Assembly: GCA_019313695.1 (NCBI GenBank) | Contig: JAFDAS010000029.1 | Span: forward strand, 1-34,293 | Direction: 5' to 3' | Length of the DNA stretch: 34,293 nt | Source: Deltaproteobacteria bacterium | GTDB taxonomy: Bacteria; Desulfobacterota; Syntrophia; Syntrophales; UBA2210 | Part shown: one piece after another, positions 4,753 through 21,421 of the stretch | How positions within the stretch are numbered: position 1 is the stretch's first letter | Layout of the letters: every line of letters begins with the position of its first letter | Notes under the pieces: model-generated | Seen by the model: the letters and a program-made list of their open reading frames with translations, nothing else | Told to the model about the DNA's origin: nothing | Database searches by the model: none | Position numbers and translations under genes: made by a program

Positions 4753-4836
4753 AGATATAACCTCCGACTATCAGTATCCTGGTGAATTTCCGAAGTATTT
4801 CCAATAGAGGGCTAAATGTCCCGCTCCAAAATAATC

Positions 4837-4860
4837 GGGGACAGGTTTAAACCTGTCCCC
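4837..4860. repeat. Perfect 24-bp palindrome ggggacaggtttaaacctgtcccc
   Basis: Self-complementary over its full length; lies in the 135-bp gap between the LolA-like and RND genes. Confidence 0.9.
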
Positions 4861-4887
4861 ACTGGTTTATGAATGTATTAATGTTAC

Positions 4888-9575: not shown

Positions 9576-9638
9576 GATCGACCGAAAAACACTGTCGATC
9601 ATCTGCTTAAAAACTCTACCGTTACGATACGCCGGGAT
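9576..9638. repeat. 63-bp imperfect direct repeat, copy 2 (partner at 384-446)
   Basis: gatcgaccgaaaaacactgtcgatcatctgcttaaaaactctaccgttacgatacgccgggat. Confidence 0.75.
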
Positions 9639-9920: not shown

Positions 9921-10134
9921 CAAAGATAACTAATTGATATAATTTATTATATTCAGAGCACCAGCGGCGCGTACAAGCTCGGGATCGGGTAGTGCCGCCC
10001 CACCCTCGGGGAATTCTTACCCATTTGCAATCCATAATTAACGCCTTCGCACTTTCGGCGTCATATCGGGATTTTATGCTTGATTTTCAGAGTTAACCGC
10101 TATACCGTTTGACATGGTCACAAAGGAGGTCGCA

Positions 10135-12654
10135 ATGGACACATCGGCAGCGTGGAAAGCACAATACCCGATCAAGGAACCGGGCAATCTCTCTCCAAGG
10201 ATCGAATGGCTCAGGAATTACTATTTCAGGGGACTGGAACGACCGTGGAACAATGAGTTCACCTCCTGGGGAACGGGAGAGCCCTGGGATGTACAGTACG
10301 ATGAAACAACATTTTACATAGTCCCCGAGACCTACGCGTTTTTCAGCACACTCAGGGCGTCATTCATCCAGGCAGCTCAACCGGTCGAACTGCATGAAGA
10401 TTTCTGGTCGTGGAGTCTCCCTGAAAGAAAGGCGTGGTTTATAAAGGAGGTTATGGTAAACCATCTGCCGCAGGAGATACTCCCGGGGGACCTCATCGCC
10501 GGAGCGCGCTTCAACATTCAGGCATCCAAATGCTGGACAAGGGAAGAGACCGCTCAGAGAGACAAGCTCATGTATGGCAGGAAAGGCGCCCGCTCAAAAC
10601 TGAAGTGGTTTTACAACCGTGGATACGGAAACGCCGGGGCCACCAGCGGACATATTATACCCGGATACGAGAAGGCCTTGCGTATCGGGTGGAAGGGAAT
10701 ACACGCCAACCTGCAGGCGGCATTTGACGCGCTTACCCAGAAGGAACAGAAAACCAGAAAAGGCGCCCAGATAAGGGCCATGATGACGGCCGCAACCATG
10801 CCTCGTGAACTGGCGGCAAAGTATGCCTCCCTGTGCAGGGATATGGCGGAAAAGGAAGACAACCCCGAAAGAAAGACCGAACTTTACAATATAGCCGGGA
10901 ATCTGGACAGGGTCCCCTGGGAGCCCGCGACAACCTTCTGGGAGGCCGTCCAGGCCCTGTGGCTGACTCATATGCTGGTCATGAGCGATGAAAACTACCC
11001 CGGACCGGGAGTGTCTTTCGGAAGGATGGATCAGTACCTGCTTCCATACTGGGAGCACTCCCTCTCTTCCGGCATGGACAGAGAATCCGGAAAGGAAATC
11101 CTGAAATGCTTCTGGGTGCATGCCAACTACGCCTACGACGCCCTGATACGCATGGGAGATAACCAGGGCATCACAGCGGGATACGGCCAGTTGATCAATA
11201 TATCGGGCATGGGAAAAGACGGCCGTGACATGACCAATGACCTTACCTACGCCATCCTTGAGGTCATAGACGAAATGAGTCCCATACTGGAGCCTAAGCC
11301 CAACGTCCGACTCCACAGGGGCAGCCCAGACCAGCTCCTCGACCGGGTGGTGGACATGATTTCCACCAGCCAGGGTTCTCCTTTCCTGCTTAACTTCGAC
11401 GAGAGGTCTATGGCCGGAATGATGCGTGAAGCGAAAAGAGCGGGGTGTGAAAACCTTATAAATAAAGATAACGTTCACGATTACGCGTCCGTCGGATGTC
11501 TCGAAAACACCATGGTGGGCAATGACCGTTCCGGAACGGTAGACAACAATCTCAACCTCCTGAAGGCGGTGGAGCTGACCCTGACGGGCGGGAAAGACCT
11601 GATACCCGCCGTGGATCCCATCACAGGCAAACAGGAAAAGATCGGACAGGACGGTCCCGCCACTGGAGATCCCGCCACATTCAAGTCATGGGGCGAATTC
11701 TGGGAGGCCTACAGCAGGCAGACCGCCTATATTATAAGCAAATGCGTGGACCTGTACGAAGCGACGGAGTCCGTACGGGCCAGGTACTGCCCTACTCCAT
11801 ACTTGTCCTGCCTCGTAAAGGGATGTGCCGAGAATGGACTCGATGTCACACAGGGAGGAGCGGAGCTGAACTTTACTACACTGGAGGGCGTTACCTTCGC
11901 CACCACCGTGGATTCTCTGCTTGCCATAAAGTATCTGGTTTTTGATAAAAAAGAATGTTCCATGGAGGAGCTTGTCCGGGCGCTCAGGGATAACTGGACA
12001 GGGCATGAAGTGCTTCAGGCCAAGGCAAAGAACAGGGCGCCCAAGTACGGCAGGGATGACGACGCGGCCGATGATATGGGGATGAAGGCCATGGATCTGT
12101 GGACTGACGAGGCATGGAAACACAAAACCTTATCCACAAACAGACAGTTCAGGCCCGGGATGTTGAGCTGGAACTACTGGATAGGATCCGGGTACATCAT
12201 GGCGGCAAGCGCGGACGGAAGACCGAAGGGACAGTTTCTGTCCAACGCCATCTGCCCGTCGAATGGCACGGACACAAACGGGCCCACAGCCAACATTAAT
12301 TCCGTGGGAAAGGTACTCGGCGGGAAAGCGGGCAAAGGTAATGGCGACTGGGGCGAATATTTAAACAGTCTTCCGAACGGTTCAAGCCACACCATCACCC
12401 TTAATCCCTCGCTTCTGCGCGACCCGGAACACAGGGAAAAATTCAAGGCGTTTCTGCGCGGCTACACGGAAAATGGGGGCACATCACTGCAGATAAACAT
12501 ACTGGATGCCGGCATGTTGAAAGACGCGCAGAGCCATCCGGAGGATTATCGTACACTGCTGGTAAGGATAACTGGGTATAACGCGTATTTCACCACCATC
12601 GGCAGAGAACTTCAGGATGAGATCATTGCCCGTGAAAGCCACGGATGTTATTAA
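10135..12654 (+). CDS. Glycyl radical enzyme, arylacetate-decarboxylase-like (4-hydroxyphenylacetate / indoleacetate / phenylacetate decarboxylase group)
   Basis: C-terminal glycyl radical motif LLVRITGYNAYFTTIGRELQDEIIAR; active-site Cys-x-Glu motif SVGCLENTMVGNDRSGTVD. Start chosen at 10135 because aaaggaggt sits just upstream (the provided ORF starts at 10114). Confidence 0.85.
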   Translation: MDTSAAWKAQYPIKEPGNLSPRIEWLRNYYFRGLERPWNNEFTSWGTGEPWDVQYDETTFYIVPETYAFFSTLRASFIQAAQPVELHEDFWSWSLPERKAWFIKEVMVNHLPQEILPGDLIAGARFNIQASKCWTREETAQRDKLMYGRKGARSKLKWFYNRGYGNAGATSGHIIPGYEKALRIGWKGIHANLQAAFDALTQKEQKTRKGAQIRAMMTAATMPRELAAKYASLCRDMAEKEDNPERKTELYNIAGNLDRVPWEPATTFWEAVQALWLTHMLVMSDENYPGPGVSFGRMDQYLLPYWEHSLSSGMDRESGKEILKCFWVHANYAYDALIRMGDNQGITAGYGQLINISGMGKDGRDMTNDLTYAILEVIDEMSPILEPKPNVRLHRGSPDQLLDRVVDMISTSQGSPFLLNFDERSMAGMMREAKRAGCENLINKDNVHDYASVGCLENTMVGNDRSGTVDNNLNLLKAVELTLTGGKDLIPAVDPITGKQEKIGQDGPATGDPATFKSWGEFWEAYSRQTAYIISKCVDLYEATESVRARYCPTPYLSCLVKGCAENGLDVTQGGAELNFTTLEGVTFATTVDSLLAIKYLVFDKKECSMEELVRALRDNWTGHEVLQAKAKNRAPKYGRDDDAADDMGMKAMDLWTDEAWKHKTLSTNRQFRPGMLSWNYWIGSGYIMAASADGRPKGQFLSNAICPSNGTDTNGPTANINSVGKVLGGKAGKGNGDWGEYLNSLPNGSSHTITLNPSLLRDPEHREKFKAFLRGYTENGGTSLQINILDAGMLKDAQSHPEDYRTLLVRITGYNAYFTTIGRELQDEIIARESHGCY

Positions 12655-12661
12655 AACAGGT

Positions 12662-13645
12662 ATGGCAAAAAACAACTCATCATCCGCGGCCACAATACTG
12701 GAAATCCAGAGATTGTCCACAGAAGACGGTCCGGGCATAAGAACCACCATATTCTTCAAGGGCTGCCCGCTCAGGTGCACCTGGTGCCAGAACCCGGAGA
12801 GCATATCCATAAGGCCTCAACTGCAGTGGACAGAGACAGCCTGCATCGGCTGCGGCACATGTATTGATGTCTGCCCGGAAAATGCCCTCACTTCCGGTGC
12901 TGAAGGCATCACAATCGACAGACATCTCTGCACGTCCTGCGAAATGTGCAGCCGGGAATGTCCATCTGCGGCGATGAAAATGCTTGGAAGGGCATGGAAC
13001 CTGGAAGAGCTGATTGCCGAAGCGATAAAGGACAGGGTATATTTTGAAAAGTCAGGAGGAGGGATTACCCTCTCCGGGGGTGATCCGGCCATGCAGGCAA
13101 ACTTCGCCGCCCTCCTTCTCAAAAGTCTGAAGGAGGAGGGGATACATACCGCGCTCGACACCTCCGGACAGTGCGCGCAGGATGTCCTTGGCGCGCTCCT
13201 GCCACATGTTGACATGGTGCTGTATGATATCAAGGAAATAGACCCGGACAGGCACAGAGAATTTACAGGCGTCTCCAATGAAAAGATATTAGACAACCTT
13301 GTCTATCTGTGCCGGTACATGGAAACACATGAAACCCCGGCAGACCTGTGGATACGAACCCCTGTTATCCCGGGAGCCACCGCGTACGAGGAAAACATAA
13401 GAGGGATAGGCCGTTTCATAGCATCCAGACTGGGCAATTCAGTAAGTCGCTGGGAGCTCTGCTCCTTCAACAACCTCTGCAGCAGCAAATACGAGCGTCT
13501 TGATATGGACTGGCCCTTCAAAGACCGCCCTCTCATGAGCAGGGAATGCATGGAAAATTTCGCCGGCTGCGCCAGGGGTTCGGGAGTGGACCCGGACATC
13601 GTGCACTGGAGCGGACCGACAAAAATGGAGGTAGGGAATAAATGA
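12662..13645 (+). CDS. Glycyl radical enzyme activating enzyme (radical SAM, with two extra 4Fe-4S cluster motifs)
   Basis: CX3CX2C motif GCPLRCTWCQNPES, ferredoxin-like CIGCGTCIDVCPE and CTSCEMCSRECPS, GGITLSGGDPAMQ. Immediately follows the GRE stop (provided ORF opens at 12617). Confidence 0.92.
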   Translation: MAKNNSSSAATILEIQRLSTEDGPGIRTTIFFKGCPLRCTWCQNPESISIRPQLQWTETACIGCGTCIDVCPENALTSGAEGITIDRHLCTSCEMCSRECPSAAMKMLGRAWNLEELIAEAIKDRVYFEKSGGGITLSGGDPAMQANFAALLLKSLKEEGIHTALDTSGQCAQDVLGALLPHVDMVLYDIKEIDPDRHREFTGVSNEKILDNLVYLCRYMETHETPADLWIRTPVIPGATAYEENIRGIGRFIASRLGNSVSRWELCSFNNLCSSKYERLDMDWPFKDRPLMSRECMENFAGCARGSGVDPDIVHWSGPTKMEVGNK

Positions 13646-13671
13646 AGTCGTTCAGAGAATTCGATATCAAT
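13530..13671. repeat. 142-bp imperfect direct repeat, copy A (activase 3' end plus first 9 codons of the split-barrel gene)
   Basis: Ungapped alignment to 17038-17179 with 8 mismatches by hand count; ends abruptly after gatatcaat. Confidence 0.93.
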
Positions 13672-13725
13672 AAAGCGCAAGATCGGATTTTCATTCTTGA
13701 CAAACAACATGGGGAGGGGTCTTGA
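13645..13725 (+). pseudogene. Truncated 5' stub of the flavin split-barrel gene (intact copy at 17150)
   Basis: atgaagtcgttcagagaattcgatatcaat = MKSFREFDIN versus MKSFKEFDIN at 17150; sequence then diverges and terminates as ...KAQDRIFILDKQHGEGS*. Confidence 0.85.
13690..13707. repeat. 18-nt direct repeat ttcattcttgacaaacaa, copy 1
   Basis: Identical to 16993-17010; near the left edge of the insert. Confidence 0.85.
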
Positions 13726-13832
13726 CTGGGGATGTTCTTCTGACAAAAATGAAGTCCTCACCTTGAATGGGTGCCCCCTGCTGTGCCCTTTTGTTATAAA
13801 GTGCGTTTAACCGCAAATGCTGGAGTTTTGAC

Positions 13833-14321
13833 ATGGACGACCGGCAGGATACACGACCGGAAATAGAACCCTGTTTCTGGGATATCGCCAATTTGAAATG
13901 GCCGATAAAAGGTAAAACCAAACCGGATCTGATTATTTTTGATCCGCCCTATTTTAAAAAGCAATCAAACAACTACAATCCTGATGGCATATCCGGAATG
14001 TCCAAAGCGAACTATCTGAAACTTCTAAAAGACTTTTTTGCGCTGGCACACCTGAACGCCAAAAAGAGTACACAGATGGCCTTCATCAATGCCGACTGGC
14101 GCGATTTTCAAAACACCCCTGCCAGAAATGAGACCCGGACAAATTCGATTTTAATCAACGATTACCTTCGGATTTTAAACCAAAGCGGCTGGCAGGAAAC
14201 CCATATCATTCAGGCGCCGCTCTCCTCGGAACGTTTTCAGGCCAATGTTGTATCCGCCATGCAAAAGAAGAAAATAATCGGTGTAACCGGCAGGTACGTC
14301 ATCATGTCAAAGAAAAAATAG
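13833..14321 (+). pseudogene. DNA (N4/N6) methyltransferase fragment
   Basis: Catalytic motif IV PDLIIFDPPYFKK is present, but no FxGxG-type AdoMet-binding motif I is visible in the 162 aa, so probably truncated. Confidence 0.6.
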
Positions 14322-14340
14322 GTCTTTAAACGTATCAAGA

Positions 14341-14497
14341 TTGATGGACTCGTAAAAAGTCGAAATATACACAATTTTGTCATTCCCGTGAAAACGGGAA
14401 TCCAGTGTTTTTAAGTAGTTATGCGCTTCTGGATTCCCGCCTACGCGGGAATGAAAGTCCGGCATGACGTTTTTGGGACTTTTTACGAATCCATCAA
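14341..14497. mobile_element. MITE-like element, 157 bp, 21-bp terminal inverted repeats
   Basis: Left ttgatggactcgtaaaaagtc; right gactttttacgaatccatcaa (reverse complement with 1 mismatch). Interior inverted arms cattcccgtgaaaacgggaatcca / tggattcccgcctacgcgggaatg. Confidence 0.8.
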
Positions 14498-14516
14498 TGA
14501 TTAAAGGAGGTATGTT

Positions 14517-14618
14517 ATGCAGAAAGGCCAAAACATCTTATTGCAAAAAATCTGTCAAGAGGTTAAAGAAGAAAAGGGGTCTGACCCCTTTTCGCTTCTT
14601 TTCGCTTTGAATCAATAA
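14517..14618 (+). other. Small ORF (33 aa) or truncated gene start with strong RBS
   Basis: taaaggaggtatgttATG; MQKGQNILLQKICQEVKEEKGSDPFSLLFALNQ*; the second half is encoded by the palindromic repeat. Confidence 0.35.
14568..14596. repeat. 29-nt palindromic repeat gaagaaaaggggtctgaccccttttcgct, copy 1
   Basis: Exact match to 16050-16078; core arms AAAAGGGGTC-T-GACCCCTTTT. Confidence 0.92.
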
Positions 14619-14736
14619 CTAATCGTTCCACCAGAAGACAAAAGCCATGACTTGCTTCCGACAATTCAAAGTTTTCGTGACTTTAGCGTCTGGTGAATTT
14701 TTGATAGTAGAAAAATAATGGAGAGAATAATTTAGG

Positions 14737-15957
14737 ATGGAAAATGTCGATTTAGATAAGACTGTAAATAATGGACGGGTTCTGTCTATTGATGTCCTCC
14801 GCGGCTTCTTTCTTGTTTTAATGGTGCTTGTCCATTTTATTTTATACTTTGGTGATGAGGAAGCAGCCAACACTTTCACATATTTTTTCTTTGACGAGAT
14901 GCTGGCTGATTGGGGAGCAGCGGCATTTTTGATGATGATGGGAATGAGCCAGGTACTGTCATCAAAAAGAGTCACAAAACCCGACAACTGGATGTTGTTT
15001 AAAAGGGCACTACTTCGTGGCGGCTATATTTTTGCAGCGGGACTCTTGATGCTTATCCTTGCATGGGGTCCTGACAAACTGTGGTGGTGGGATATCCTCA
15101 CACTTATGGGTTTCGCTACTGTTGCCCTGTTTTTTTGTCGTTTTCTGCCTTCCTGGTTTTTGATTGTTCTTTGCTGTGCCATCGCGCTTTCAACCCCGTC
15201 TATTCGCGACATTTTTAACATTGCGGCTGATTGGGGATTTGAAGAATCTTCGTTTATATCTAAATACTTGCCGGGAATGTTTTTAGAGCCTCTCAGCGAT
15301 TATCATCCGGCGATAGTCAAGGGTTTTTTTCTATCTGGTTATTTTGCGGTTCTGCCATGGATAATATTCTCAATTATCGGTTTTGTTCTGGGCAGAAGAA
15401 TTGTTTTGGGGAAAATACAGCGTGACTTGCCGTTTTTGTTTATCACAGGTGTTCTGTTTTTGGGTCTTGGATTTAGCCTGGCTTACTTAGGTCGCCCTCA
15501 TCTTCCCTCTTCGGTAATCTATGGATTAATATCTCCTTTATGCTTCTACCCGGATTCGTTTTCCATGATAAACATACAGGTGGGCATGTCTATAATTGTG
15601 TTTGCCATGGCATACTTTTTTTTAGATGTAAGGAAAAAAGATAAAACAAATATTGGTACTATAAACCGGCTTTTTATCCGAACAAGCAACTTTTCGTTAA
15701 CTTTCTATTTTCTTCATTACATGTTGGTGGGGTGGCCCCTTGCAATATTGTATCTTATTACTGGCAGATATATGCTCGGTGATATGCTGAGTATTATACC
15801 TGCTTTGGTTTGTGGCATAGTTGCAGTTGCTTTGCTTGAAATTTTGATATTTTTCTGGGGTAAAGCTGGTTCCAAATGTAGCCTTGAATGGATCCTTGCT
15901 AAGCTCACAACGTTTGTGCTTCCTGGTTACAAGCGCAGTATTAACAAGATGAGCTGA
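14737..15957 (+). CDS. Polytopic membrane acyltransferase-like protein (heparan-alpha-glucosaminide N-acetyltransferase / DUF1624-like)
   Basis: 406 aa; N-terminal RVLSIDVLRGFFLVLMVLVHF signature followed by many TM segments. Confidence 0.75.
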   Translation: MENVDLDKTVNNGRVLSIDVLRGFFLVLMVLVHFILYFGDEEAANTFTYFFFDEMLADWGAAAFLMMMGMSQVLSSKRVTKPDNWMLFKRALLRGGYIFAAGLLMLILAWGPDKLWWWDILTLMGFATVALFFCRFLPSWFLIVLCCAIALSTPSIRDIFNIAADWGFEESSFISKYLPGMFLEPLSDYHPAIVKGFFLSGYFAVLPWIIFSIIGFVLGRRIVLGKIQRDLPFLFITGVLFLGLGFSLAYLGRPHLPSSVIYGLISPLCFYPDSFSMINIQVGMSIIVFAMAYFFLDVRKKDKTNIGTINRLFIRTSNFSLTFYFLHYMLVGWPLAILYLITGRYMLGDMLSIIPALVCGIVAVALLEILIFFWGKAGSKCSLEWILAKLTTFVLPGYKRSINKMS

Positions 15958-16049
15958 TATTTTCTTTCGCATGATTTTTTGAGATAAGTAAATTATAACT
16001 CTCATATTGTTGTTAAGATTTAGTAAGTTACAGAAATTTAAAAAATTGT

Positions 16050-16078
16050 GAAGAAAAGGGGTCTGACCCCTTTTCGCT
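16050..16078. repeat. 29-nt palindromic repeat, copy 2
   Basis: Exact copy of 14568-14596 in the same orientation. Confidence 0.92.
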
Positions 16079-16138
16079 CTCTAAAACATGCGGCCTGTGG
16101 GCCGGGCCGTTGGTCAGGAAGAAAGAGGACAGAAGATC

Positions 16139-16708
16139 ATGGATATGAACGTAGTCATCAGAGACGAGACGAATGCCGATGTTGAGGCGATAACTGAGGT
16201 GACAGTCGCCGCGTTCGAAACGCTGGAGATCAGCAACAATACAGAGCAGTTCATCATCATGGCACTACGTGCAGCCAAGGCCCTCGCAGTGTCTCTGGTT
16301 GCGGAACGGGATGGCTGCGTCATCGGGCATGTGGCTTTCTCCCCCGTGACCATTTCTGACGGCACACCCAACTGGTACGGACTAGGACCCGTCTCGGTGT
16401 TGCCGGCGCATCACCGGCAGGGCGTTGGCTCTACTCTGATCCAAGAAGGTCTGTCCCGACTCAAGAACCTGAATACTGCAGGATGCTGCGTTGTGGGGCA
16501 TCCGGAGTACTATAGGAAGTTTGGGTTCGAGAACGAACCCGGTCTGTTGCTTGAGGGAGTGCCACCAGAGGTCTTCTTCGCCCTATCCTTTGATGGGCGT
16601 GTTCCTCAGGGCACGGCCGCTTTTCACGAAGCATTCAAAGCAGATGGACAACAAGACGATGGACAACTATCATTTGAAAGCCCGCTTTCAGATGAAGTGT
16701 CATCGTAG
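16139..16708 (+). CDS. GNAT family N-acetyltransferase (YhbS-like)
   Basis: 'LGPVSVLPAHHRQGVGSTLIQEGLSRLK' (R/QxxGxG acetyl-CoA motif) and 'VVGHPEYYRKFGFE'. Start revised to 16139, preceded by gaaagagg. Confidence 0.8.
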   Translation: MDMNVVIRDETNADVEAITEVTVAAFETLEISNNTEQFIIMALRAAKALAVSLVAERDGCVIGHVAFSPVTISDGTPNWYGLGPVSVLPAHHRQGVGSTLIQEGLSRLKNLNTAGCCVVGHPEYYRKFGFENEPGLLLEGVPPEVFFALSFDGRVPQGTAAFHEAFKADGQQDDGQLSFESPLSDEVSS

Positions 16709-16737
16709 TCGTTAGCCACGAAATAGGATACAATAAT

Positions 16738-17028
16738 GAGTTTGGAAGTCTGGATTACCTACATTTTTGCTACAACGCTTATTTTGATAATACCGGGGCC
16801 AACAATCATTCTGGTTGTAAGTCAAGCTGTGACACATGGACGGGGGCCAATGGGGATCAAATCTTTATTCTTGAATCAAGATTTTCTGAATCCCGGTTAC
16901 AAGCTGGTTGCGCCTCCTCCGCATAAGCCAGGCCTTCTTCCCCGGTGGCTTGGCGAAAAGGGTGTGAATATTATCAAAGGTCGGAGGAGGTCTTCATTCT
17001 TGACAAACAATATGAACTGGCTTATTTA
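16738..17028 (+). pseudogene. Chimeric fragment: LysE/RhtB exporter N-terminus joined to a NifX/Mrp-like C-terminal fragment
   Basis: MSLEVWITYIFATTLILIIPGPTIILVVSQAVTHGR is LysE-like; NQDFLNPGYKLVAPPPHKPGLLPRWLGEKGVNII resembles the dinitrogenase-cofactor (NifX-type) domain segment 'PPPHxPGLLPxWLxEKGVNxIIAGGMG', which is cut before IAGGMG. Confidence 0.6.
16993..17010. repeat. 18-nt direct repeat ttcattcttgacaaacaa, copy 2
   Basis: Identical to 13690-13707; near the right edge of the insert. Confidence 0.85.
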
Positions 17029-17037
17029 AAAACAACG

Positions 17038-17179
17038 CTCTCATGAGCAGGGAATGCATGGAAAATCTCGCCGGCTGCGCCGCGGGTTCGGGAGTAGACC
17101 CGGATATTGTGCGCTGGAGCGGACCGACAAAAATGGAGGTAGGGAATAAATGAAGTCGTTCAAAGAATTCGATATCAAT
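17038..17179. repeat. 142-bp imperfect direct repeat, copy B (orphan activase 3' end plus start of the intact split-barrel gene)
   Basis: Encodes MSRECMENLAGCAAGSGVDPDIVRWSGPTKMEVGNK* versus MSRECMENFAGCARGSGVDPDIVHWSGPTKMEVGNK* in copy A. Confidence 0.93.
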
Positions 17180-17995
17180 GACATGAAAGCATTTGAACCG
17201 GAGGCGAAGGTTGGATTAATCGCGACCATAAATCCCGAAGGCCTTCCCCACATTACCCTGATCACCGCCCTCCAGGCAAAAACCCCGTCACAGATGATCT
17301 GGGCCCAGTTCACGGAAGGCATGAGCAAGAAGAACGTCAGGACAAATCCCCATACGGCTTTTCTTATAATGACTCTGGACAAGGCGCTCTGGAGGGGAAA
17401 GGCCACCTGGACCCACCTCGCAAAAGAGGGGGAAGACTATGAGATGTTTAACAAAAAGCCCATGTTCAGATATAATGCCTACTTGGGCATACACACAGTG
17501 TACTACATGGATCTCGTGGAGACATACGGCAGAGAAAAGCTGCCCCTGGCGAATATCGCCCTCGCGTCTCTGCTCACCGGAGCCGCGAAATCGGGTGCCG
17601 GGACAGGCGCGGGGGAACAGATACTGAGACCCTGGGGGGAAGGGCTGTTCAACGGGTTGAGTTCTCTGAAGTTCATAGCCTGGGTGGGGGAAGACGGCTT
17701 TCCCAACATTACTCCGTTGATACAATGCAAGGCTTCGGACAGCAGAAGACTCGTCTTTTCCACAGCGGCCTACGGGAAAGAACTGGACGCGATAAAGAAG
17801 GAGACATGCGTGGCGGTGTTCGGCCTTACCATGGACATGGAAGACATCCTGATACGCGGAACGTTCACGGGAATCAGACGGTATCGGGGAATAAAACTGG
17901 GCGCGATAGACATAGAATGGGTGTACAACTCCATGCCGCCAAAAGCGGGTCAGATTTATCCCGAAGTGCGGTTAAAACAAGTCGTGGATTTCTGA
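17150..17995 (+). CDS. Pyridoxamine 5'-phosphate oxidase-like FMN-binding split-barrel protein (apparently two barrel-like halves)
   Basis: 'EAKVGLIATINPEGLPHITLI' and 'LKFIAWVGEDGFPNITPLIQCKASDSRRLVFSTA' are two PNPOx-like strand pairs in one 281-aa ORF. Overlaps the orphan activase stop as in copy A. Confidence 0.7.
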   Translation: MKSFKEFDINDMKAFEPEAKVGLIATINPEGLPHITLITALQAKTPSQMIWAQFTEGMSKKNVRTNPHTAFLIMTLDKALWRGKATWTHLAKEGEDYEMFNKKPMFRYNAYLGIHTVYYMDLVETYGREKLPLANIALASLLTGAAKSGAGTGAGEQILRPWGEGLFNGLSSLKFIAWVGEDGFPNITPLIQCKASDSRRLVFSTAAYGKELDAIKKETCVAVFGLTMDMEDILIRGTFTGIRRYRGIKLGAIDIEWVYNSMPPKAGQIYPEVRLKQVVDF

Positions 17996-18021
17996 AAGGA
18001 CTTTTTACAAAGCCATATAGC

Positions 18022-19365
18022 CTATCTGTCCGTGTCTATACCGTAGTTTTTTATCTTCGTCCTCAGGGTTTTTCTGTCAATACCTAAAAACTTTGCGGTC
18101 TTGCCTATTTGAAAATCAAAATGGCGCAACGCCCTTTCTATATGCTCCTTTTCGACATCCACGAGGGTCATCCTTCCCGAATGAGAATCCACCACGGGAA
18201 CCTTCATATCCTTATGTTGCCCGAAGTAAAGGATATCAGACTGGTTTACGATCTCATTTTCGCAAAGCACGCATAGCCGCTCAACTGTATTCTTCAATTC
18301 TCTGATATTGCCCGGCCAGTTATACAACATCAAAGACTTCTCTGCCTCCTCCGAAAAACGCTTTACCTTGCTCTTGTGCTTTTTTATATATATGTTGAGA
18401 TAGTGTTGCGCGATTGGAATTATATCGGACCTGTGTTCTCTTAAGGGTTTTATATCTATCGGAACTACTGATATTCTGTAGAAGAGGTCTTCCCTGAACT
18501 GACCGGAATCCACCTGCGCCCTCAGTTCCTTATTAGTCGCCACCAGGAGCCTCACATCGACCTTGTCGGCTCTTGAACTGCCGACCCGTGGAACTTCCTG
18601 TTCCTGGATAACCCTCAACAGTCTGGCCTGGGTGGCAAGACTGATATTGGATATCTCATCCAGAAAGAGCGTGCCTCTGTCTGCCATCTGGAAACGTCCC
18701 TCACGCGACTGGGTCGCGCCGCTGAACGCGCCCTTGACATGACCGAAAAGCTCACTCTCCATCAGATTCTCCACGAGGGAAGAACAATCAACGGGAACAA
18801 ACGGTTTGTCTTTCCTGCTGCTGAGTTTCTGTATTGCGCCAGCCACAAGCTCCTTGCCCGTTCCACTCTCGCCGGTAATAAGAACCGTGCTGTCTGTGTA
18901 CGCCACCCTTCTGATCGTATCTTTTAATTCCTCCATGTAACTACTGTTCCCTACCAGGTCAGGGATATCACCCTCCGGTCTTTCCGCGCTTGACGCATTC
19001 AGAGCGTTCTTCACCGCCTTTCTCAGCTCAGTCGCGCTGAATGGCTTCGTCAGAAAATCAAATGCCCCGTACTTCATGGCCTCAACAGCTATTTCTATGC
19101 TTCCGTACCCGGTGATGATTATGATATGCGCGGATATATCGGACTCCATTTTAAGTTTTCTCAGGACATCCAGACCGCTCATCTTAGGCATCTGCACGTC
19201 CAGCAGAATGATATCATAAACATCTTTAAGGGCCATTTCAAGACCGCGAACCGCATCGCCCACCTCTTCAATACGATACCCCTCGCGTGACAATATCTGA
19301 CGGCAGCCATCACGTATTGATTCCTCATCATCGATGATAAGTATTTTTCCGACTCTCTCAGCCAA
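18022..19365 (-). CDS. Sigma54-dependent response regulator (REC-AAA+-Fis/HTH, NtrC family)
   Basis: REC N-terminus; GESGTGKE Walker A; GAFSGA loop; DRGTLFLDEI Walker B; C-terminal Fis-type HTH IGKTAKFLGIDRKTLRTKIKNYGI. Confidence 0.95.
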   Translation of the reverse strand: MAERVGKILIIDDEESIRDGCRQILSREGYRIEEVGDAVRGLEMALKDVYDIILLDVQMPKMSGLDVLRKLKMESDISAHIIIITGYGSIEIAVEAMKYGAFDFLTKPFSATELRKAVKNALNASSAERPEGDIPDLVGNSSYMEELKDTIRRVAYTDSTVLITGESGTGKELVAGAIQKLSSRKDKPFVPVDCSSLVENLMESELFGHVKGAFSGATQSREGRFQMADRGTLFLDEISNISLATQARLLRVIQEQEVPRVGSSRADKVDVRLLVATNKELRAQVDSGQFREDLFYRISVVPIDIKPLREHRSDIIPIAQHYLNIYIKKHKSKVKRFSEEAEKSLMLYNWPGNIRELKNTVERLCVLCENEIVNQSDILYFGQHKDMKVPVVDSHSGRMTLVDVEKEHIERALRHFDFQIGKTAKFLGIDRKTLRTKIKNYGIDTDR

Positions 19366-21421
19366 CCTTTATATCCTCCGCAGATTCGTCCCGCTCAGGG
19401 TTGTCAAACCCTTTTGCCGGCAAAAAAATAGAAAACGTCGTTCCCCGCCCGGGTTCGCTCTCCACATCGACGAAACCATCGTGTTTACGAACTATGCCAT
19501 AGGCGATGGACAGCCCCAGACCGGTCCCCTGCCCCGGATCTTTCGTGGTAAAGAAGGGCTCAAATATATGGGCCTGGTAGGTCTTGTCTATCCCTCTGCC
19601 GGTATCCGAGATAGTGATCTTGATGGTATGAGGGCTGGCCAGAAGGCATATCTTCTCCATTTCCGTACTTTCTGCCGCATCGGATGGAAATCTGCTGATC
19701 AGTTTTGTCGCTACTGTCAGCTTACCACCTTCAGCCATCGAATCGGAGGCATTGATAAACAGATTCAGAAAGACCTGTTCCAGCCGTAATCTGTCACCAT
19801 TAACCTCGGGAAGACCTTCCGTGAAGCTGGTTTCTATCTCTATTCCGTGAAACATGGATTGATCCTTCACCAGGCTGAGGGACGTCCAAAGCACATCGTT
19901 TATATCGAGCGGCATCATTTCGCCCGAAGGAGTCCGGGCAAAATCCAGGAGATTCTGAACGATCTCTTTACACCTGTTTGTTTGATATACGATTTTGTTC
20001 ATATTTTCCCATGCCGGGCTGTCTTCCGGAAGTTCCTCCAACACGAGATTGCTGTAAAGCAATATGCCGCCGAGAGGATTGTTCATCTCATGGGCGACAC
20101 CGGCCGCTATTTGTCCAAGGGAAATCAGCCGTTCCGTCTGTGTAAGTTGCTGGAGGGTTCTCTTGAGCCTGTCATCGCGATCCTTGAGCGATCTGACCAT
20201 GTCATTGAACGCCTTGTCCAGCACGCCAAAATCCGATGATTTACTGCGTGGCAATTGATAGTCGAGGTCACCGGTCGCGATTGTCTCCGCGGCCTGCTTC
20301 AGTATGCGCATCCTTTCTATAATGGTATGTCCCATCCAGAACGAGATAATGAAGGCTACAATCATGCCGAGTGTCGTTATGCCCAGGAATATCCACATGG
20401 CAAGCAGCTTCATGTCTCTGTATTTTGCCTCCAGTATTCCAACGTAGAGCATCCCTATTATGGTATTGTCTATACTGTACACAGGCACATATGAACTGAG
20501 ATACCAGTCATTGACCACAAACGCCCTTCCAGTCCAGTCTTCGCCATCTTCAACAACCTTTTCATACACCTCCCTCGACACAGTGGTGCCCGTTGCCCTT
20601 TTGGAATCCTTCGTCATCACATTGGTGGATACGCGCACGCCTCCCTGGAATATTGTGGCAAACCCCATATCAAGATTCTTGTATTTTTCGTCGCGGTATA
20701 CTGTTTCTTTTATCTTGTCCACTATGGCATAATCCCCGTTAAGCAAAACACCTCCAACGAGGGCGCCTCTGAAATCCCCTTGCGCGTCAAAGACGGGATA
20801 GGCCGCTCTCAGCACCATCCCCTCAGACAATTGTTTATCCCCGGTCTCCATGGATCGGGGCGTCTCTACTATGACTACATCAAGACGCTCCGAAAGCAGG
20901 GGGTTCTCCCTCTCTATTCTTTCCGAAGAAATCAGTTCGGTTGACGACAGTGGCGTTTTTTTATCAAGGCATTCCCGTATGACCGGATCCCACAAGACGT
21001 TATCACCTTTTACCGTCGGGTTAAAGGCCCTGTACAGCACGGTGCCTTCGGCATCCACCAGGAAAAGCATGTCAAGCCACATACCCCCTGGTACCTGCCC
21101 ATCTTTCCCCTCCGCTCCCGCGCGTATCAACCTCTTCAGGTCTTCCAGCGCGAGCGTATCGCCGGAAGAAGTAGCACCGTCAAGATGGGATCTCAACGCG
21201 ATACTGCGGACCTGAAATGCCAGTCTTTCCATGTTGTACTCATAGATGAGTCTCGCGGTATTTATATCCTGCCGCACTCTTCTCTGCGCCTCATCCATGG
21301 TATTTCTGCTGATTATTTTTATGCCAACGAACGTAGCCACAATACCGGTAATACAGGTGGCTGCCAGAAATCCCAGCACAAGACGTTTTTGCAGGCTTTC
21401 TTTGAAGATATATCGCAACAA
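19358..21421 (-). CDS. Membrane sensor histidine kinase (extracellular cache-like sensor, HAMP, HisKA, HATPase)
   Basis: GVAHEMNNPLGGI H-box; N/G boxes LFINASDSM, ISDTGRGIDK, GTGLGLSIAYGIV; two TMs flanking a large sensor region. Overlaps the regulator by 8 nt. Confidence 0.93.
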   Translation of the reverse strand: MLRYIFKESLQKRLVLGFLAATCITGIVATFVGIKIISRNTMDEAQRRVRQDINTARLIYEYNMERLAFQVRSIALRSHLDGATSSGDTLALEDLKRLIRAGAEGKDGQVPGGMWLDMLFLVDAEGTVLYRAFNPTVKGDNVLWDPVIRECLDKKTPLSSTELISSERIERENPLLSERLDVVIVETPRSMETGDKQLSEGMVLRAAYPVFDAQGDFRGALVGGVLLNGDYAIVDKIKETVYRDEKYKNLDMGFATIFQGGVRVSTNVMTKDSKRATGTTVSREVYEKVVEDGEDWTGRAFVVNDWYLSSYVPVYSIDNTIIGMLYVGILEAKYRDMKLLAMWIFLGITTLGMIVAFIISFWMGHTIIERMRILKQAAETIATGDLDYQLPRSKSSDFGVLDKAFNDMVRSLKDRDDRLKRTLQQLTQTERLISLGQIAAGVAHEMNNPLGGILLYSNLVLEELPEDSPAWENMNKIVYQTNRCKEIVQNLLDFARTPSGEMMPLDINDVLWTSLSLVKDQSMFHGIEIETSFTEGLPEVNGDRLRLEQVFLNLFINASDSMAEGGKLTVATKLISRFPSDAAESTEMEKICLLASPHTIKITISDTGRGIDKTYQAHIFEPFFTTKDPGQGTGLGLSIAYGIVRKHDGFVDVESEPGRGTTFSIFLPAKGFDNPERDESAEDIKVG

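Follow-up and report, generated by a model that had tools for sequence, protein, structure and literature searches.

Foreign DNA enclosed by a direct, partial duplication of its target has been described in Escherichia coli, where 56 of 60 Lac- integrants at lacZ gave a PCR product diagnostic of partial target duplication, and the 14 duplications sequenced measured 109-950 bp (PMC3240628). In the authors' account, such structures arise by one crossover with a circular molecule, part of the homology having been lost (PMC3240628). Homology-facilitated illegitimate recombination (HFIR), defined in the same study, has also been proposed for Vibrio cholerae immunity arrays (PMC5361080), and approximately 10% of the small variable segments attributed to illegitimate recombination are reported to be flanked by direct repeats (PMC2884548). 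The duplicated gene junction described here is most likely a real feature of the genome and most plausibly an ordinary, if elaborate, insertion scar.

The window, a stretch of 34,293 bp, is one whole contig (C145) of the metagenome-assembled genome (MAG; G000) of an uncultured, Syntrophales-like bacterium, with 282 contigs and 2.8 Mb, 95% complete and 4% contaminated, and was compared with MAGs labelled Deltaproteobacteria, Syntrophales, Syntrophaceae and Syntrophobacterales, among others. It carries an operon in the order glycyl radical enzyme (GRE; PFL-like, with a glycyl radical domain), radical-SAM activase and PNPOx-like split-barrel protein, downstream of which a sigma-54 response regulator and a histidine kinase lie on the opposite strand (approximately 17996-21289). 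Each of the three genes has an open frame and a conserved protein sequence, with dN/dS of 0.12-0.16. The GRE falls below the cut-off of every NCBIfam model (the best, subfamily PFL2-3, gives 406 bits against 678) and apparently belongs to an uncharacterised class, while the GRE-activase-split-barrel operon is conserved across many loci, one of them labelled Firmicutes. A PNPOx-like protein, LssP, is also reported from a limonenylsuccinate synthase operon (PMC12583861). Two further repeats were seen in the window: a 63-bp direct repeat of 81% identity upstream of the GRE operon, its copies 9.2 kb apart (384-446 and 9576-9638), and a dispersed repeat at 4829-4868, whose 40 bp are identical to the DNA directly after the split-barrel gene of the related genome G001 (L038 251-290).

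Table 1. Features of the interrupted operon and its insert; positions are those of the window, and matches elsewhere are given as genome:contig, with positions where available.
Feature	Coordinates	Strand	Details
GRE, 846 aa, intact	10114..12654	+	Pfam PF02901 and PF01228; dN/dS 0.12 versus G001
GRE activase (radical SAM), 342 aa by longest ORF, intact, tail within copy A	12617..13645	+	NCBIfam TIGR02494, 311 bits, cut-off 174
Copy A of junction	13530..13671	+	37 activase codons, stop, ATGA overlap, 10 split-barrel codons
Mosaic insert, ~3.4 kb	13672..17009	.	Right limit is the start of copy B homology; absent from the operon of G001, G003, G005-G007, G010, G011 and G016
ParB/methylase gene leader segment	13683..13803	+	95% to G003:C115:5287-5408
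22-bp repeat, left copy (LD_L)	13690..13711	+	Just inside the insert, adjoins copy A
3' part of ParB-HTH-DNA-methylase gene (ORF 13833-14321)	13802..14321	+	Internal deletion relative to leader; 87% to G002:C136, 92% to G000:C119, 91% to G000:C38
MITE-like repeat, ends CTCGTAAAAAGTC / GACTTTTTACGAA	14335..14498	.	Many copies in the order; self-inverted match 14340-14498
HGSNAT-like membrane acyltransferase ORF, 406 aa	14737..15957	+	PF07786, E 2.6e-16
GNAT acetyltransferase ORF, 206 aa	16088..16708	+	PF00583; 75% nt to G009:C7 across 245 bp
LysE-type transporter gene, first 126 bp	16717..16842	+	98.4% to intact ORF on own contig G000:C33
Dispersed-repeat fragment	16843..16913	.	16861-16913 91% to G000:C38:838-890, upstream of decayed ParB/methylase copy
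NifX/Mrp-like gene fragment, 66 bp	16914..16979	+	92% to G003:C54 and G002:C70; 88% to G000:C131
22-bp repeat, right copy (LD_R)	16993..17014	+	Just left of copy B, overlaps its left edge by ~5 bp
Copy B of junction	17038..17179	+	Gives split-barrel gene its GGAGG ribosome site and start; weaker homology from 17010
Split-barrel (PNPOx-like), 281 aa, intact	17150..17995	+	PF01243; dN/dS 0.13 versus G002

Between activase and split-barrel gene the operon is interrupted, and the gene junction itself stands on both sides of the interruption. The two copies, A and B, lie at an offset of 3508 and agree at 134 of 142 positions (94.4%) with no gaps, the mismatches being at 13559, 13574, 13575, 13588, 13597, 13600, 13605 and 13655; this is the ungapped repeat with eight mismatches that a first-pass annotation of the DNA had claimed. 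No better 142-bp match occurs at offsets of 3.0-4.0 kb, and five shuffles give 63-65 matching positions. Weaker homology runs 27-28 bases further left, to 13503/17010, extending the repeat to 170 nt at 90% identity with one gap. The mismatches are unevenly spread, with seven in the 76 bp of 13530-13605 (9%) and one in the 66 bp of 13606-13671 (1.5%), and leave a mismatch-free block of 49 bp at 13606-13654. The same annotation had read each copy as the last 36 activase codons, an overlapping stop and start, and about nine split-barrel codons; the overlap stands, and the counts become 37 sense codons plus the stop and 10 codons, respectively. Its amino-acid differences between the copies (F/L, R/A and H/R) are correct, the activase tail at the junction reading LMSRECMENF... 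in one copy and LMSRECMENL... in the other, and the gene reading agrees with its assignment of the full activase and a split-barrel stub to copy A and of the intact split-barrel gene to copy B. The stub comprises 27 codons before a stop. Because activase and split-barrel gene overlap by ATGA, an insertion at the overlap would normally break one of the two; with the junction duplicated, the activase is whole through copy A, and the split-barrel gene obtains its ribosome site and start through copy B.

The claim that the operon has been interrupted is borne out by related genomes, in the same genus as well as in distant relatives: the split-barrel gene directly follows the activase in G001 (L039), G016 (L028), G003, G005, G006, G007, G010, G011 and more distant loci. 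The insertion is therefore derived. Both flanks of the window are collinear with G016 and G001, and the operon sequence is complete, no host DNA being missing relative to these relatives. A chimera of a fragmented metagenome assembly might be suspected in a MAG with this number of contigs and this level of contamination, the more so as the relatives' contigs also break in the GRE operon. However, the contig departs from a collinear locus and rejoins it where it left off, and two independent false joins would be needed for this; the insert pieces are 2-13% diverged from their counterparts and hence do not come from the same reads; and the junction copies differ at eight sites. We regard a chimera as very improbable.

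A second disturbed case is found in G002, where only the last 97 bp of the activase stand before the split-barrel gene; the unrelated DNA further upstream has no match in the insert or in the other loci compared. The GRE of G002 ends at a contig end (residue 826), and no activase was found in that genome. On the other side of the same split-barrel gene (L027 1992-2532, G002:C112), most of the downstream pair of histidine kinase and sigma-54 regulator has been lost. As a separate observation, the activase of G001 lacks 64 bp (corresponding to window 13380-13443; L039 around 5202, G001:C131) and is shifted in frame; it is likely broken, and the GRE beside it is intact.

The insert is a mosaic of unrelated fragments, many of which match other places in the genus at 87-98% identity, and its pieces meet at joins with between 0 and about 5 bp of microhomology. 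The G+C content along it ranges from 28% to 55%, compared with 52-54% in the operon genes. Both acyltransferase ORFs are intact, the HGSNAT-like one being flanked by identical 29-bp palindromic repeats (14568-14596 and 16050-16078). No transposase or integrase was detected among the insert ORFs scanned, and the insert has no terminal inverted repeats at its ends, the MITE, its sole element-like unit, being internal. A phage search with the insert and a plasmid search with the methylase fragment only returned no match. An integron cassette array was considered on account of the acetyltransferase and LysE pieces, but the ORFs scanned include no integrase. A promoter scan gave a total of 10 promoter-like sites, only mildly above the 5.7 +/- 2.3 of shuffles. 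Differently deleted copies of the ParB-HTH-DNA-methylase gene are present at G000:C38, G000:C119, G002:C136 and G003:C115, as if this gene spreads and decays across the genus.

A feature absent from the first-pass annotation, a 22-bp repeat, TTCATTCTTGACAAACAA(C/T)ATG, lies at both inner ends of the insert, and the only third place found for it is G003:C115. There, the left end of the insert (repeat and leader) and its right end (NifX fragment and repeat) are direct neighbours, with no junction segment between them, so that the insert is circularly permuted relative to G003, as expected of a circle opened at the 22-bp repeat or of copying past its own start. The TTGACA within this repeat was also considered as a new promoter at the joint of insert and copy B, and was rejected, as the scan gave it no score.

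From these features we infer a circular molecule, a single crossover and an origin inside the genus. The reading that we tentatively prefer, at somewhat short of even probability, is that scrap DNA, already joined to a truncated junction copy, integrated by accident, likely through one crossover with a circular molecule. The ancestral state would have been an uninterrupted GRE-activase-split-barrel operon; beforehand, a patchwork of scraps would have become joined to a short truncated junction copy of about 170 bp, on a molecule that was circular or had been circularised by illegitimate end joining. A single recombination with the chromosomal junction, plausibly within the identical block of 49 bp, would then yield the order junction-insert-junction. 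The adjacency of the insert ends in G003 would fit a single crossover, and, as in Campbell-type integration, homologous host sequence is directly repeated on both sides of the insert (142 bp, 94.4%). A donor carrying junction and scrap was found neither in the own genome nor among relatives and phages, nor among plasmids, which were searched with the methylase fragment only; such a molecule need not have survived or been sequenced. Some pieces, such as the MITE and the LysE fragment at 98%, may be later additions, and the insert need not have arrived all at once.

The main rival of the single crossover is template switching in replication or repair, which would generate insert and duplication in one event and would need no junction-carrying donor. 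Synthesis would leave its template within the split-barrel start, copy the scrap, passing the 22-bp repeat twice, and re-enter 142-170 bp upstream. Consistent with such a path are the tiny joins within a succession of short pieces (126, about 70, 66 and about 20 bp) and the adjacency of both insert ends in G003; at three sites, moreover, copies A and B stand together, apart from G001 and G002. Against it, the left halves of A and B differ by 9%, like different species, and the event would thus need to be old. To our knowledge, such long re-entry is little documented in bacteria, and a literature search gave no close bacterial precedent. We consider template switching rather unlikely, although clearly worth weighing beside the single crossover.

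The age and origin of the two copies bear on the same question. Overall, A and B differ by 5.6%, and the GRE DNA of three close species by 8.7-10.5%; the view that the duplication is not very recent is supported. Recombination with a homologous donor fragment is a possible source of this divergence, and two copies 5.6% apart can also derive from an older local duplication. Over the 97 bp shared with G002, the three sites that group A with B are matched by three at which B agrees with G002 and A agrees with G001. These latter states would suit HFIR with linear DNA of a related lineage whose split-barrel gene had already been cut off from its activase, with the anchor in the split-barrel gene and the illegitimate end at 13671, and G002 does carry an allele of that kind. 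However, in the tree from the repeat the grouping of B with G002 is weak (59% bootstrap) and the AU test rejects no topology, the upstream DNA of G002 matches nothing in the insert, and insertion by HFIR usually comes with the loss of as much DNA (PMC3240628), whereas nothing is deleted here. An origin of the insert by HFIR appears distinctly unlikely.

The first-pass annotation had proposed that a tandem pair of operons collapsed or that a paralogous operon replaced the interior, and had predicted a second GRE/activase/split-barrel operon. Searches of the own genome by DNA and by protein, in an assembly that is 95% complete, did not find one: the junction DNA occurs twice, both times inside the window, there is no second full activase match of this type, and the genome's one other GRE has 35% identity. 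Either model would leave two diverged copies, directly oriented and in operon order; nevertheless, the insert beyond the 142-170 bp repeat contains no remnant of GRE, activase or split-barrel gene, none of the relatives examined has a tandem operon, and the unrelated scrap would still require a separate insertion. Both models are accordingly quite improbable, and the accidental integration of a junction-carrying molecule remains our preferred reading.

Other direct repeats are present in the same genome. Contig C57 has a 130-bp repeat of 96% identity (L132 2017-2146 and 5215-5344) flanking an open frame of 966 codons, just upstream of the genome's other GRE. On contig C88, approximately 1.5 kb of unrelated DNA is enclosed by a 202-bp repeat of 80% identity (L145 2202-2403 and 3916-4117), each copy of which holds the 5' end of the same gene; as G002 also has two copies of this repeat, it may be an old paralogy and is given no weight here. 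In a 383-kb sample of the genome, the remaining low-copy direct repeats mostly look like palindromic intergenic repeats or MITEs.

The locus represents an accidental insertion of a known kind and no new genetic system. It offers a natural example of overlapping genes separated without loss, and it illustrates how short gene fragments that also occur in other places of the genus can be chained at one locus by tiny joins. More than one species of that genus shows the GRE-activase-split-barrel operon in the course of being broken. Given the overlap, both genes stay whole only where an insertion duplicates it, and such survivors may be over-represented. We hold it to be extremely improbable that selection has kept the duplication, with recombination between A and B excising the 3.4-kb insert and restoring the coupled operon, so that a population would switch its split-barrel gene from operon-coupled to insert-driven expression and back.

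Compared with known systems, the locus resembles a transposon or IS insertion in having a direct target repeat on both sides, but its copies differ from each other and its scanned ORFs include no transposase or integrase; the usual target duplications of transposons and IS elements are far shorter than 142-170 bp. With HFIR it may share one homologous and one illegitimate end, and it does share the retention of downstream host sequence behind the insert; no join exceeds about 5 bp. Host sequence is duplicated here, whereas deletion of host DNA is usual in HFIR. Like the variable segments of PMC2884548, it is a short segment between conserved backbone genes, but what flanks it is an entire, repeated gene junction, and both neighbours stay readable. 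The recircularised, partly degraded linear molecule of E. coli was selected in a single conjugation experiment, whereas the copies in the present locus have diverged by 5.6% and no donor was found in the searches; in both cases, foreign DNA lies within a direct partial duplication of its target, of 109-950 bp there and 142-170 bp here (PMC3240628).
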